This document shows positions 875 to 10,195 of a stretch of 20,489 nucleotides of DNA, in pieces (position 1 is the first letter of the stretch; the number at the start of each line of letters is the position of its first letter). The notes beneath the pieces are model-generated. The model saw only the letters and a list, made by a program, of their open reading frames with translations. It did no database searches and had not been told where the DNA came from. The stretch lies in the IMG/VR virus record IMGVR_UViG_3300014839_000053, positions 1 to 20,489 of that record. The stretch is one strand, 5' to 3'. The translations under genes were made by a program, and so were the position numbers. This DNA comes from a virus.

Positions 875-2953
875 TTACCACTCTGCTCCTTTCTGAGCTT
901 GCAGGAAGAATGACTGTATCTGATACAGTTGACTTCCGGTTTCCATGAAATCGACGATTAGAGTTTTGCCCCTTGCACTAACTGATTTGTAACCAAGCAT
1001 ATCGTTCACAAGAGCCGAAATATATATAACCTGCGCAGAAGCATTGGTCAAAACTACCGGATTACCTGATGCGTTTGTAAAAAGAATTGACGACCCGGAG
1101 AACTGGATAGAAACATTGTCTGACGACACATTCCCTATGACGGTCATTACAACATTGATAGGAGCATTTAATCCCGTTATATTATAAAGCTCTGCTCCAA
1201 CCTTTAATGACTGCTTATCATTTACAGGAAGTCCGAAATTGTAATCTTTCGTCCTGCATTGCCTTGTCAAGACAGCGCTTGAGTTGGCATAAAAAAGCTG
1301 TACTATAGTATTTCCTACAGCTCCAAAAACATTTGTCGAGCTGGAATTTTCCTGCGCTGCACAGTAGTTAAGGTTTGCAAGACCGTAATCAACCTGGAAC
1401 CATCTATTCTCATAGTAGCAGACAAGATACTTATGGTTTGTCCCGTCAACCGGAGAAGGCGCAAGGCAAAGAATACAGTATAATAGTTTGTTATACACTC
1501 TTGCAAGGAACGCCATTGGCGTAAATCCAGTTGATATTGTAGGGTAAAACCCATCAAGGTAGTGAGATAATAGTTTGTACGACGAAGCCTGCGCAGCGTG
1601 AATGCCATAATCTCCCATCATGTAAACGAATTGCGCATAAGGAATCACCGTCTCCGGATAGAACGCCCCGATCTCGGGAAGAGTATCTGCTATCTGGAAC
1701 GTTGTCGTTCCTGTAGAAAGCATTTGAAGTCCGAATATGATATGGGTAGAATGGTCGCCGCATACATAGAGATAGTCTTGCGTACCAACCATATTGTTTA
1801 TGGTTGTAGTAAGGTCTGAATAATAATCCTGGACAGCTCCGGCCCCGTCCAATACGGTCCAATCAGTAAAGGAAGAAGGAGCGGAAAACATGATTGCTCG
1901 AGTTCCCGTTGCTATCCACACTCTCAATTTCCACACGCAAATGGCCGTCCCTGTCGCAATATTCGGAACCATCATAACGCTTGTTTGGTTTGCATAAACT
2001 ACGCTTGGAAGAACAACGCCGTCAGTTAAAGAGGTTGTGCCACCGATAAAATTCCCACCCGAAGGATTAACGGTAAGGATTCCTACCAATGATCTTGCCG
2101 TATCTATTGCAGGAAGTACTACTCCGGCAAGCGTAACGGCCTGGGTTCCTGTAACCATTGATGCTGCGCCGGCGGCGTTTATATAGAGATAACACTGGTT
2201 ATAGTTCCCCTGCGTGCAGTTGAATCCGGTCAAGTCCCAAAAGTTGTCAGTTGCAGATTTTGTGTAGTGGTTATTGCCTATGACATATTCTATAAAGTTG
2301 GCGAGCTTGACCTTCGTAAGTGTCGTTGCCTGCGCTATGTTGGCGGACATAACAGGGCTATTGTTGTTGTTAATATAGAAATATCCGTTTAAAGGGTCAA
2401 CACCGACGACCGTAGTAAAGCTCCACTGATCGACCATGGGATTAGTAAGAAGCGCCGGCATGGATATGCGGCTCACGTTCCATGATGAATCAATACGGTA
2501 CACCATCCCGCCGAGAGTAAAGACTATCCAGTAGAACACATTATTAAAATTTGCATAGAAGAAACGCTGAATTGTACAGTCGTATGCTCTCCACGTTACT
2601 CCGCCGTCTGTCACGCTATTCCCATTGATCACTGGCCATGTTGGAGGAGCGGCAGCGGAAGTCCCGCCTACAGTACAAAGATAGATGAACCCGTTAGGGG
2701 TCGCGGGACTAACAATTTGATTTACGACATACGGGGTAAGGTTTGCTCTTGAGGTCTCTCCGGCCCCGATAGTAGCAAGCGCGGAAGAATAGGCTGGTAC
2801 GGCATAAAGGGCATTGCCGACCGGCATGAAGTTAATACAAATAGCAAGCTCATCAGATTCAAGGTCAACGCCCTGCTCTGCCGAGTTCCACGTTCGGAAA
2901 CTCGTCATTTCGGTGCTGAAAGGTGCTAGTCCTTTTGAAACCTGGGTGGGCAT
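875..2953 (-). CDS. Large tail hub / DNA-stabilisation protein, P22 gp10-like, 692 aa
   Basis: Probably the beta-propeller-like hub that plugs the head-tail channel below the adaptor. Typical patterns are an N-terminal 'pFsteMTSFRTWNS...EsDELAicINFMPvGNALYAVPAY', a middle 'RVWIATGTRAIMFSAPSSFTDWTVLDGAGAVQDYYSDL', then 'YLYVCGDHSTHIIF' and 'VYMMGDYGIHAA...HYLDGF'. P22 gp10 is about 470 aa; the extra length comes largely from two inserted modules. Residues about 70-124 (GGTSAAAPPTWP, SVTDGGVTW) match a segment of the adaptor gene. Residues about 220-322 (YTKSATDNFWDL, FIGGTTSLTDG) match the 188-aa protein at 5715-6281. The ATG overlaps the adaptor's TAA stop (TAATG). The hub role is inferred; the module sharing is seen directly. 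Confidence 0.65.
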   Translation of the reverse strand: MPTQVSKGLAPFSTEMTSFRTWNSAEQGVDLESDELAICINFMPVGNALYAVPAYSSALATIGAGETSRANLTPYVVNQIVSPATPNGFIYLCTVGGTSAAAPPTWPVINGNSVTDGGVTWRAYDCTIQRFFYANFNNVFYWIVFTLGGMVYRIDSSWNVSRISMPALLTNPMVDQWSFTTVVGVDPLNGYFYINNNNSPVMSANIAQATTLTKVKLANFIEYVIGNNHYTKSATDNFWDLTGFNCTQGNYNQCYLYINAAGAASMVTGTQAVTLAGVVLPAIDTARSLVGILTVNPSGGNFIGGTTSLTDGVVLPSVVYANQTSVMMVPNIATGTAICVWKLRVWIATGTRAIMFSAPSSFTDWTVLDGAGAVQDYYSDLTTTINNMVGTQDYLYVCGDHSTHIIFGLQMLSTGTTTFQIADTLPEIGAFYPETVIPYAQFVYMMGDYGIHAAQASSYKLLSHYLDGFYPTISTGFTPMAFLARVYNKLLYCILCLAPSPVDGTNHKYLVCYYENRWFQVDYGLANLNYCAAQENSSSTNVFGAVGNTIVQLFYANSSAVLTRQCRTKDYNFGLPVNDKQSLKVGAELYNITGLNAPINVVMTVIGNVSSDNVSIQFSGSSILFTNASGNPVVLTNASAQVIYISALVNDMLGYKSVSARGKTLIVDFMETGSQLYQIQSFFLQAQKGAEW

Positions 2954-3765
2954 TAGTATCCTTTCAATCTGCGCTGGATTCCGTTGGCGAGCGTCCTGCC
3001 TCTCATATTGAAATACCCGTTCATAAAGGCATTGGCATCATCCCATCTCTGGTCCTTTATCTTTGCTAGATATGCCATGTAGAACTGCACACATTCGTTA
3101 TAGGGCGATAGAACCTCCAGGTCAGGGTCGGTAAGATTTACCAACGGAGCAGGGTCGAGAATTATATCCAAGTCCATTATGTATGCAATGGACGGAGATT
3201 GCGCGATATAGAGTATCTGGTTATTTTGAGACCACATTGACGGCATACCGGGGACGTTATAGACAACGGACCCCTGCCGGGAGAATTGCGAATATGGCAA
3301 ATAATTAAGCGGAAGCCTTTGCGTACCGCTGTACCACATATACACATCGAGACATCCAAGAGCCGTTCTTCCGGTTACGATTCCCGTTAAGGGATATTGA
3401 TAGACATAGCCCTGAATCGCGGTCCATGTAACCCCGCCGTCTGTTACAGTCCCGCCATTTGTTGTAGGCCATGCCGGTTGATTTGCGCCGGACGTTCCGG
3501 CGATAGAGCAGCAATAATAAAATCCATTGTACGGATTGAGCGCAACCCTATCGTTCAGATTAAAGGCTGTTAATTTAACCCATGATAGTTGCGGATAAAC
3601 TTTGACGGCAGTGGCCAACTGACGAGTGCAGCCAGTTTCCGCTGCCGTCATAGATCGTGCTTTATTGCAGTACCTAATCAGCTCTGCGGTTGTCCAATAC
3701 TTATTCGTCGCATCGTGGAGTAGGTTCTGACAATCCGACAAGTAATCGGAAAGCAATGTTGACAT
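2953..3765 (-). CDS. Head-tail adaptor (connector), 270 aa, with inserted module
   Basis: The N-terminus STLLSDYLSDCQNLLHDATNKYWTTAELIRYCNKARSMTAAETGCTRQL is a helical bundle start typical of short-tailed phage adaptor/tail-accessory proteins that bind the portal, the P22 gp4-type position. The C-terminus (SPYNECVQFYMAYLAKIKDQRWDDANAFMNGYFNMRGRTL) is again helical, as expected for such connectors. Between them, residues about 61-118 carry a separate aromatic module (NGFYYCCSIAGTSGANQPAWP, GGTVTDGGVTW) that recurs in the hub gene downstream. The gene starts after a GGAGGG site close to its ATG and its stop overlaps the hub ATG. Adaptor assignment is by pattern and gene order. Confidence 0.6.
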   Translation of the reverse strand: MSTLLSDYLSDCQNLLHDATNKYWTTAELIRYCNKARSMTAAETGCTRQLATAVKVYPQLSWVKLTAFNLNDRVALNPYNGFYYCCSIAGTSGANQPAWPTTNGGTVTDGGVTWTAIQGYVYQYPLTGIVTGRTALGCLDVYMWYSGTQRLPLNYLPYSQFSRQGSVVYNVPGMPSMWSQNNQILYIAQSPSIAYIMDLDIILDPAPLVNLTDPDLEVLSPYNECVQFYMAYLAKIKDQRWDDANAFMNGYFNMRGRTLANGIQRRLKGY

Positions 3766-5714: not shown

Positions 5715-6281
5715 TTAGGTTAATAGTGAAAAATATCCAGGGAATGTCATGTCATAGAACACGGCATTAGGAACTACCGTGCCGTCGCTCAATGACGTTG
5801 TGCCGCCAACAAAGTTTCCTGTCCCTGTAGGGTTGATTGTTAAATACGCTATAACGCAATATGCTACGTTAGGCGTAGGCATGACAATGCCAGCCTGCGA
5901 AGATGCCTGAGTTCCAGCAGCAAACTGAGCTGCGCCGGAAGCATCCATCATAAGCCAAATTCCATTCCAGTTTCCGTTTGTCACATTGCATGTCGTGTCC
6001 AGCGTCCAGAAGTTATCTGCGGCCGCCTTGGTGTATGCTTTTCCCTTAATGGTATATTGCACCGCGTTTACGGTCTTTGCCTTTTGCGTCGTTGTAGCGA
6101 TAGCGGAGCCGGCCACGGAGAAGCACATAGAGTTAAGCGCCTGCATGATCGTGTTGAAGAGCTGCCCCATTTGGATAGAGTGGGCTGCCGGTGAATTGTC
6201 ATTCACTCTGCCAAGATTCGCCGTTGATTCTAGGGGCGGCTGGTAAATTGTTACAGGCAATACTGGTTGGACGTATGCCAT
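5715..6281 (-). CDS. Virion protein between scaffold and coat, 188 aa, carries hub-shared module
   Basis: Residues 1-70 include a proline-rich start and a helix (AAHSIQMGQLFNTIMQALNSM). Residues about 74-176 form a module (QYTIKGKAYTKAAADNFWTL ... GNWNGIWLMMDASGAAQFAAGTQA ... AYLTINPTGTGNFVGGTTSLSDGTVVPNAVF) that aligns end to end with residues about 220-322 of the 692-aa hub encoded 3 kb downstream. The helix could anchor it to the capsid or oligomerise it and the module could be displayed, but this is inference. AAGGAGG lies 5 bases before the ATG. I do not know a named family for the module. Confidence 0.7.
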   Translation of the reverse strand: MAYVQPVLPVTIYQPPLESTANLGRVNDNSPAAHSIQMGQLFNTIMQALNSMCFSVAGSAIATTTQKAKTVNAVQYTIKGKAYTKAAADNFWTLDTTCNVTNGNWNGIWLMMDASGAAQFAAGTQASSQAGIVMPTPNVAYCVIAYLTINPTGTGNFVGGTTSLSDGTVVPNAVFYDMTFPGYFSLLT

Positions 6282-8488: not shown

Positions 8489-10195
8489 TCAGCCTTTGGC
8501 CGGTTTAGCGGTCATTTTCTTGAGCTTTTCGAGCATTTGAAGCATGTTTTGCTCGTTTATCTCGTTCACTATTCCGGCAATGGCATTCAGTTTGTTGTTT
8601 TCTTCCTCGCGTTTATGGAGTTTAGACTTCATATAAGCGCTGTTCTGGAACCTCATCATATCGATAAGGTCCTCTTTATCGATAGCCCCGGCCTTAAATG
8701 CCTGCTCCGCTTTGTCCATTTGCTGGTCTATGAATATCGGAGAGCTGGAATGGGAGTCAACTTTGACGGCAGATCGGCTTGAAAGCATCTTGGCGGTGAA
8801 TTTATACCCCTTTGGCTCGTCCAATTCGTAGTGGGTGGGGTCATATTTACGCATAAAGGCAAGTATCAAAGAGCCCACTTTTTCGACTGAATCTTCCAAA
8901 ATAGCGGCCTTTTTCTTCACTCTGGAGCTTCCAACCCTTACCAAAAGGTCTGCGTGTGAGGTCGCGCGAACTCCCTTCTCGCCTTTTCCCTGCATCAACT
9001 CCCTGATTCCCGATACTTCGTCGAACATTGTCTCTATCATTTTGAGCTCGGAAAAGAGGTCGCCGGCCTGCGCCTGGAATAAATTGAGGATATTGCCCGA
9101 AGGAATATCGGTTGCAATCCTGTCCCCAGGGTTTTCCAGCCATTTTTCTTCCACCACGCCTGACATTCCTATGCCGGCAAGAGGCGGGTCGGCTATTTTT
9201 GCCAGTACCCTGCGTATCTCCTGCACCCTTGTATTCATCCATTCCTGGAGCGGGATAAGGTGCATCAGCTCGGTCTTACCCCAAAAGTAATTCGCTATCA
9301 TGTTCGGGGTTATTTTGATCAGGGGGAGCTCGTTCGGGACAAAAGTGTTCTCCATAGCATCGAAGAACGTAACCTTGCTATCGGCCATGAGGACCATTCG
9401 ATAGTCTTGCGCGTCATCGTCATAGACCATAAGCTCATGGCAAACGAGCACTTTCTCGTTTATCTTTGGGTTCATGTCATACGTTGCGGTCACGTTTGAC
9501 ATTTGCCCCTGTACTCCGCCAGTTTGGGGATTGGTAGCGGTAACAATGAGCTTCGCTACCGGCAGCGGAAGGGTATCTCCGCCGGTCTCTACCTCGCTGA
9601 ATCCGCCCCCTATTGCGTTCATTATGCGTGTCTTTTCTTCCTCTCCGAACTTCTCTATCCTTCGTTTGAACTCAGACTCTCCCATGTAGAACTCATGGCA
9701 TACGCACTCTTGATTATCGAGCATAGGCACATCTTCACGAAGCACGCCGACAAGTTGAGGCTCGACAAGATAAGCCCCAAAACGCGCATTCTCATACGGG
9801 ACGAGCTTTATGAACATGGTCGAATATACCAGCGCCCAATTCAATGCTTCGTTAAAGAGAATGTCGAGATTGCTGTCATGCCAATTCTCTACCACTTTCG
9901 GAAGTATTACCTGGGCCTTGCGCTGTTCTGTGATGGGGTCCTGGCTATCTGAATCAACGGATGTTTCTATGACAAAAGCTGTGGTTTCGCCTGAAAAAAG
10001 GAATGAGGAGAGAAGGTCGATGTGGGCATAAAGTTTATTGTAATCAACCGCTTGAGGGAGTGATTGATTGCCATACAGGTAGTAGTTCTTGAGGACGGAA
10101 TAGAGGTTCTTGCGATCTTCTCGCGAAGCGAAACATCGCGTGATAAGGTCAACGTAAAATGCTTCTCTTTCGTTAGGCTCTTTGGGAATTTTCAC
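8489..10195 (-). CDS. Portal protein, 568 aa
   Basis: Forms the dodecameric ring at the packaging vertex through which the terminase pumps DNA. The N-terminus (REAFYVDLITRCFASREDRKNLYSVLKNYYLYG) and the central block (LPLIKITPNMIANYFWGKTELMHLIPLQEWMNTRVQEIRRVLAKIADPPLAG) are typical of podovirus-type portals, followed by the long helix region (FDEVSGIRELMQGKGEKGVRATSHADLLVRVGSSRVKKKAAILEDSVEKVGSLI). A C-terminal charged helix (KLHKREEENNKLNAIAGIVNEINEQNMLQMLEKLKKM) fits the barrel or crown. It overlaps the zinc-ribbon gene by 23 bases. Length and position downstream of the terminase agree with the call. Confidence 0.8.
   Translation of the reverse strand: MKIPKEPNEREAFYVDLITRCFASREDRKNLYSVLKNYYLYGNQSLPQAVDYNKLYAHIDLLSSFLFSGETTAFVIETSVDSDSQDPITEQRKAQVILPKVVENWHDSNLDILFNEALNWALVYSTMFIKLVPYENARFGAYLVEPQLVGVLREDVPMLDNQECVCHEFYMGESEFKRRIEKFGEEEKTRIMNAIGGGFSEVETGGDTLPLPVAKLIVTATNPQTGGVQGQMSNVTATYDMNPKINEKVLVCHELMVYDDDAQDYRMVLMADSKVTFFDAMENTFVPNELPLIKITPNMIANYFWGKTELMHLIPLQEWMNTRVQEIRRVLAKIADPPLAGIGMSGVVEEKWLENPGDRIATDIPSGNILNLFQAQAGDLFSELKMIETMFDEVSGIRELMQGKGEKGVRATSHADLLVRVGSSRVKKKAAILEDSVEKVGSLILAFMRKYDPTHYELDEPKGYKFTAKMLSSRSAVKVDSHSSSPIFIDQQMDKAEQAFKAGAIDKEDLIDMMRFQNSAYMKSKLHKREEENNKLNAIAGIVNEINEQNMLQMLEKLKKMTAKPAKG

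Follow-up and report, generated by a model that had tools for sequence, protein, structure and literature searches.

Two adjacent virion proteins, a head-tail adaptor and a hub, each carry an inserted copy of one and the same module, predicted to be a self-contained domain of about 60 residues with a chitin-binding (CBM5/12-like) fold. The function that we consider most likely, at about even confidence, is that of a weak, multivalent, putatively glycan-binding decoration plugged into virion proteins. The two genes lie in the virus record IMGVR_UViG_3300014839_000053, analyzed over its whole length of 20,489 bases (the window), within a minus-strand structural operon that encodes terminase, portal, capsid protein, adaptor, and hub. 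The features discussed here are as follows.

8489-10195, minus strand: portal protein, given for context, with a match to phrog_332 'head-tail adaptor' (connector) at E 3.3e-4
2953-3765, minus strand: head-tail adaptor, 270 aa, SU10/T7 gp11-type, helix bundle plus beta domain
3598-3624, minus strand: strand 48-56 of the adaptor, 5' side of the module-receiving hairpin (model secondary structure)
3406-3594, minus strand: module copy 1, adaptor residues 58-120, within the beta-hairpin of the beta domain
3391-3402, minus strand: strand 122-125 of the adaptor, 3' side of the module-receiving hairpin (model)
875-2953, minus strand: hub or tail nozzle-type protein, 692 aa, gene directly after the adaptor
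2579-2770, minus strand: module copy 2, hub residues 62-125, insertion near the N terminus

A first-pass annotation, made from the sequence alone, had noticed a segment common to the two proteins at 3412-3585 (adaptor residues 61-118) and 2582-2746 (hub residues 70-124). These coordinates are correct, and the shared segment is real: BLASTP aligned adaptor residues 59-122 with hub residues 66-133 at 31 of 68 identical positions (E 6e-14), and the Smith-Waterman score between the proteins was 150, far above the scores of 1000 hub shuffles (mean 38.8, standard deviation 5.6, maximum 65). With the module removed from both adaptor and hub, the score dropped to 32. The profile phrog_20658 matched both copies (2.1e-11 and 1.1e-10), and at an E of 0.01 our module profile found nothing else among the window's open frames of 60 aa or more. 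The additional claim that part of the segment is near identical in DNA did not survive. Across 58 gap-free aligned residues, 92 of 174 bases match; the same codon is used at 10 of the 28 identical residues; the best ungapped DNA repeat between the copies spans 30 nt with 73% identity; and no identical run exceeds 11 bases. This low DNA and codon match indicates conservation at the protein level with no recent copying, and the two copies are old at the DNA level. GC content is 0.497 in the adaptor module versus 0.470 in the rest of that gene, and 0.542 versus 0.448 in the hub.

The position of the copies in adjacent genes would suit a recent duplication within this genome, one that made two rings touch, yet we rejected this explanation as very improbable. 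In addition to the codon divergence, each copy has better matches in other phages than in its neighbor: the adaptor copy is 54% identical to the module of locus L166, and the hub copy 55% to that of L221 and 60% to that of L189, against 48% between the two, in a comparison confined to a sample drawn with the two window copies as query.

The adaptor is a neck protein of the SU10/GP4/T7 type, in keeping with the placement at the neck that had been proposed for it. The window protein alone gave no Pfam match at E ≤ 1; among the members of its alignment, to which it is 29-35% identical, 69 of 72 matched PF24175 (SU10_adaptor) at E ≤ 0.1, the best at 2.9e-20. As a positive control, SU10 gp11 matched PF24175 at 2.5e-29; our own three-sequence profile of the adaptor core missed SU10 gp11 (E 0.095). 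A structural model built from 72 sequences (pLDDT 85.8) gave fold Z scores of 15.4 to 8jov_2 (GP4 portal-tail), 14.5 to 9k09_d (cyanophage A4), 12.8 to 7z47_A (SU10 tail), and 9.4 to 7box_N (T7 gp11), where values below about 13 may, by the tool's own caution for helical bundles, reflect a common arrangement only. Foldseek assigned a probability of 1.00 to the GP4, cyanophage A4, and SU10 chains, and we retain the fold reading despite this caution because the PF24175 family match backs it. The adaptor gene follows portal and capsid genes in the window, in MW202825, in MW202753, and in SU10, and the MW202825 gene annotated as portal matches PF23899 (SU10_portal) at 8.3e-13.

Within this protein, the module had been described as interrupting an otherwise helical connector. 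The interruption stands, but the part that receives it is not helical: the model combines a helix bundle with a beta domain, and the insert lies in the latter, between strands 48-56 and 122-125, where insert-free homologs close the hairpin by a short loop. We gathered 173 distinct adaptors, the window's included, from 240 loci (some sharing contigs) after a further scan. Of these, 120 have the insert and 53, MW202825 among them, have the short loop, counts that are not frequencies in nature, since the loci were picked by similarity to our queries among the matches listed. Relatives without the insertion therefore exist, and the module is an insert in the adaptor beta-hairpin, not a core part of the fold in all homologs. 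The window's two copies form part of the module profile, which matched 117 of the 120 inserts, all but those of MW202753, L321, and L324. In our first set of 164 sequences (window included; 83 with and 81 without the insert), it had matched 80 of 82 insert-bearing homologs at E 0.05 and none of the 81 others. When the collection was reduced to representatives below 90% core identity (n = 53; 37 with the insert, 16 without), the closest pair differing in the insert shared 73% core identity.

Several of these relatives call for comment. The MW202753 adaptor carries its insert at the same place as the window's. Searching MW202753 directly with the window module gave no match; because the module profile also misses this insert, its homology is read from the family alignment. 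A match between MW202825 and the window's module (E 9e-4, 25% identity) contained two internal stop codons and was taken as noise. SU10 gp11 aligns to the adaptor family at 16% identity, too poorly for the insert to be placed residue by residue on the SU10 fiber dock. A single-sequence search of IMG/VR for close relatives of the window adaptor returned none, so that the history of the site is seen coarsely, through relatives about 33% identical.

In the strongest rival to glycan binding, the module serves as a structural brace or fiber dock, clamping adaptor or hub subunits or forming a platform for fibers. We regard this as a serious alternative, with prospects somewhat below even. In SU10, twelve adaptors lie between the portal and a hexamer of nozzle proteins, each made of a helix bundle, a long-tail-fiber dock domain, and an embracing loop (PMC9509320). 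The dock is present in the SU10 and T7 adaptors and absent from those of P22 and Sf6, which have no long fibers (PMC9509320). The 53 module-free adaptors among 173, together with the pair at 73% core identity, argue on the other side that assembly in general needs no module.

The ancestry of the insert bears on the same question. The window adaptor's module scored 82.5 bits with a profile of canonical modules, a set fetched with the window's copies as query, and 17.4 bits with a profile of sister-adaptor modules. Canonical modules score a median of 16.8 bits on the latter, so the window copy is no nearer to the copies of its sister adaptors than are the modules of unrelated proteins. In a module tree, a single split (support 0.995) gathered all 69 sister-adaptor modules and left the window's copy outside. 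A distinct lineage of this kind is expected if the module acts as a brace and has co-adapted to its adaptor; the window's module, which fits the general phage pool and not the sister-adaptor profile, shows the reverse of co-adaptation. This could mean two separate fillings of the slot or strong divergence in the sister lineage; with 60 residues to compare, we do not argue for the former over the latter. A midpoint tree of the adaptor core from 45 representatives, in which the root is unsure and the window lies on a long branch, nests the insert-free sequences as one group among insert-bearing ones, which favors one loss. We tentatively suggest, as a possibility well short of even, that in a large SU10-like group, known mainly from metagenomes, the hairpin serves as a permanent docking site at the neck. 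CBM-like modules drawn from a phage-wide pool would have occupied it on two or more occasions, one lineage being old and shared by most relatives and a different one present in the window, and would have been lost from it once, leaving a swappable glycan-binding neck surface paired with the hub copy.

On the basis of gene order, the hub is probably the nozzle. It is 30% identical over 271 columns to the corresponding MW202825 gene (E 2e-27), in the C-terminal half; it matched no PDB sequence at E ≤ 1, and a BFVD match to a protein annotated as P22 gp10 is confined to the module. The hub module is also an insertion. When 162 hub-like ORFs of relatives (L003-L164) were searched with the module at E ≤ 1, only the window's own proteins matched; 157 of these ORFs begin within the locus and are 130 aa or longer, and 155 of the 157 have the family's N-terminal anchor, of N-x-P-x-G type. 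Elsewhere in the hub (875-2953), residues 204-324 share a domain of about 120 residues with a small protein whose gene, at 5715-6281, precedes that of the capsid protein (59 of 123 identical, E 8e-32). In MW202825, MW202753, and L247, the central part of the hub has GGGG-type repeats with matches to numerous other families of phage structural proteins. The MW202753 hub gene (MW202753.1 9314-11302, L004) is annotated 'baseplate wedge initiator', perhaps owing to such repeats, which match baseplate wedge families.

Beyond these two proteins, the module's domain type is common in phages. Similar segments had been said at first pass to be widespread in phage structural proteins, and we found the module in six or more kinds of phage protein, tail and other structural proteins among them. 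A scan with the two window copies, which used the TDGGVTW stretch as a pattern, matched at least 599 stretches; 143 were confirmed and the best 80 of the 143 kept. Module-bearing open frames ranged from 98 (incomplete) to 1419 residues, with the module N-terminal, central, or repeated. In L202 it lies between PF09931 and PF09356 of a baseplate hub, and in L203 inside a major tail protein (phrog_807). Among ten module proteins scanned, two matched phrog_644, two had the module beside a GP4 fiber gp80 domain, one was a gp53-like fiber, and one a collar fiber; L176 gave a weak major tail match and L189 module matches only. Named BFVD matches comprised tail fibers, baseplate wedge, major tail, pectate-lyase, and P22 gp10-annotated proteins. 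Searches of a phage collection returned no match to the window module alone and two weak matches to the L166 module. A scan of genome contigs found the module in three MAG contigs, labeled beta proteobacterium, Bacteroidetes, and Mucilaginibacter, which we did not take as hosts.

The profile phrog_20658, labeled 'head decoration', matches all ten of the module proteins scanned through positions ~128-191 of its own 211. As these include tail proteins, the label is probably transferred in error to proteins simply because they contain the module. No Pfam model exceeded its cut-off over the module in the proteins scanned. Naming the module would help to annotate many phage proteins.

Such highly varied contexts are what one would expect of a neutral or selfish mobile module, a stable fold that is tolerated in surface loops and spread by recombination without serving a function. 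MW202825 and MW202753 fit this picture as well, differing in the module with no other obvious change in gene order from portal to hub. We nonetheless think it unlikely. G90 and P97 are each kept in 55 of 55 modules across these contexts, and position 99 has an aromatic residue in 54 of 55; the TDGGVTW stretch, having served as a search pattern in the scan, is not counted here. It also speaks against neutrality that 120 of the 173 distinct adaptors, in a similarity-selected sample, have the module.

The case for carbohydrate binding begins with the fold. Modeled alone from 55 sequences (pLDDT 92.9), the module matched a domain of the cyanophage Pam1 tailspike (7eea) at Z 8.2 with 33% identity. 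Of the 50 matches listed, 33 were to enzymes active on chitin or to entries named as chitin-binding domains, with a few proteins recurring many times; 14 were to phage or injection-system proteins and two to unrelated proteins. Bar the entries so named, we take the matched part of the chitin enzymes to be their CBM5/12 domain. Z was 5.6 to 3wx7 (rmsd 2.5 over 52), 5.5 to 4nz1, 4.7 to 4tx8, and 4.0 to 1ed7 (over 44 of its 45 residues), where a Z of 5-6 can mean a common arrangement only, phage baseplate and fiber proteins reaching 4.9 and 4.7; families absent from the fold lists are not counted as excluded. Adaptor residues 58-120 taken from the whole model behaved alike (7eea, Z 8.6, rmsd 1.9; 3wx7, Z 6.0, rmsd 2.0). 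With the module alone, no PDB entry passed E ≤ 0.001 in Foldseek, 7eea coming at 1.7e-3 and the best chitin enzyme at 0.34. The predicted model has the small beta fold of the PF02839 chitin-binding type, at modest Z.

Sequence relates the module to this family weakly. Pfam CBM_5_12 was matched by 24 of 55 modules at E ≤ 0.05 (best 2.3e-5). None of the 55 reached the PF02839 cut-off, 26.2 bits; L189 came closest at 24.8, and the window adaptor copy scored 14.5. The hub copy had no CBM_5_12 match at E ≤ 0.05, and a PF02839 family search on the window record gave none. In the window copy, the CBM_5_12 match covers residues 5-38 of 64 and ends before the TDGG-VTW part. L189 matched the chitin-binding domain of chitinase A1 (1ed7) at 4.9e-4 and CBM_5_12 at 2e-4; when the module profile was run against the PDB, 1ed7 (E 0.45) ranked behind a sialidase (0.028) and demethylase 4B (0.036). 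Trp687 of chitinase A1 is the known chitin-contact tryptophan, and we take module position 95 as its equivalent. This position is aromatic in 1 of 55 modules and in none of 69 sister-adaptor inserts (alignment extended by hand), and the usual ligand tryptophan thus seems, from the aligned sequences, to be missing. In favor of binding, position 99 (Trp99 in the adaptor copy) is aromatic almost throughout, in 54 of 55 modules and all 69 distinct sister-adaptor inserts. The comparison with carbohydrate-binding modules that the first-pass annotation had called for is divided, with the CBM5/12 fold and a weak sequence relation on one side and 0 of 55 modules above the Pfam cut-off and a non-aromatic tryptophan position on the other. 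Given the Pam1 and chitin-domain fold, the weak sequence relation, and no cut-off reached, carbohydrate binding is plausible but putative.

The fold matches also include one that favors a brace. In 6uzc_C, which would be the T4 capsid protein, residues 162-228 matched the module at Z 3.9, and the same range of 8gmo_0 (T4 capsid shell) at Z 2.8. In T4, a chitin-binding-like insertion domain bridges neighbors within one capsomer (PMC3185693). The LSH1 authors face this uncertainty too, in their case for a galectin-like domain carried by a distal tail protein (PMC13243795).

Glycan binding remains our preferred reading, and we envisage it as follows. Phages would plug a CBM5/12-like domain into the loops and linkers of many virion proteins. 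By analogy with SU10, the adaptor copy would be present at the neck 12 times per virion and the hub copy, if the hub resembles the SU10 nozzle, six times; with 12 adaptors and six hubs, about 18 modules would stand round the neck and upper tail. Probably exposed at the virion surface, they could bind weakly and multivalently to a host surface polysaccharide or an environmental glycan and so lengthen residence, a benefit that would come before the dedicated fibers engage. Sugar-binding decorations of phages are usually sought on fibers, tail tips, or heads. Neither the motif nor such an adaptor insert was found in the literature titles and abstract openings listed, and a search for the motif letters returned no paper that contains them. 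A removable CBM-like module at the neck, combined with natural relatives that have or lack it (up to 73% core identity), makes a role of the neck in adhesion directly testable.

Set against known systems, the window's module-bearing protein belongs to the same family as the adaptors of SU10 and T7 (gp11; PF24175), but SU10 gp11 itself is unmatched by the module profile. Gene order differs as well: in SU10 five genes separate adaptor gp11 from nozzle gp17, whereas in the window, MW202825, and MW202753 the hub gene follows that of the adaptor immediately. The T4 capsid insertion domain resembles the module in being a chitin-binding-like insertion in a virion protein; it differs in bracing capsid subunits (PMC3185693), and it is not among the PDB sequence matches of the module profile. 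With the CBM5/12 domains of chitooligosaccharide deacetylase and chitinase A1 (PF02839), the module shares the fold and a weak sequence relation, but it falls under the Pfam cut-off and is non-aromatic at the usual ligand tryptophan position. The receptor-binding domain of the Pam1 tailspike (7eea residues 586-644) has the same fold, is 33-35% identical over 57-58 residues, and is matched by the module profile at E 7e-4; Pam1 carries its module in a tailspike, whereas the window's virus carries it in a neck adaptor.
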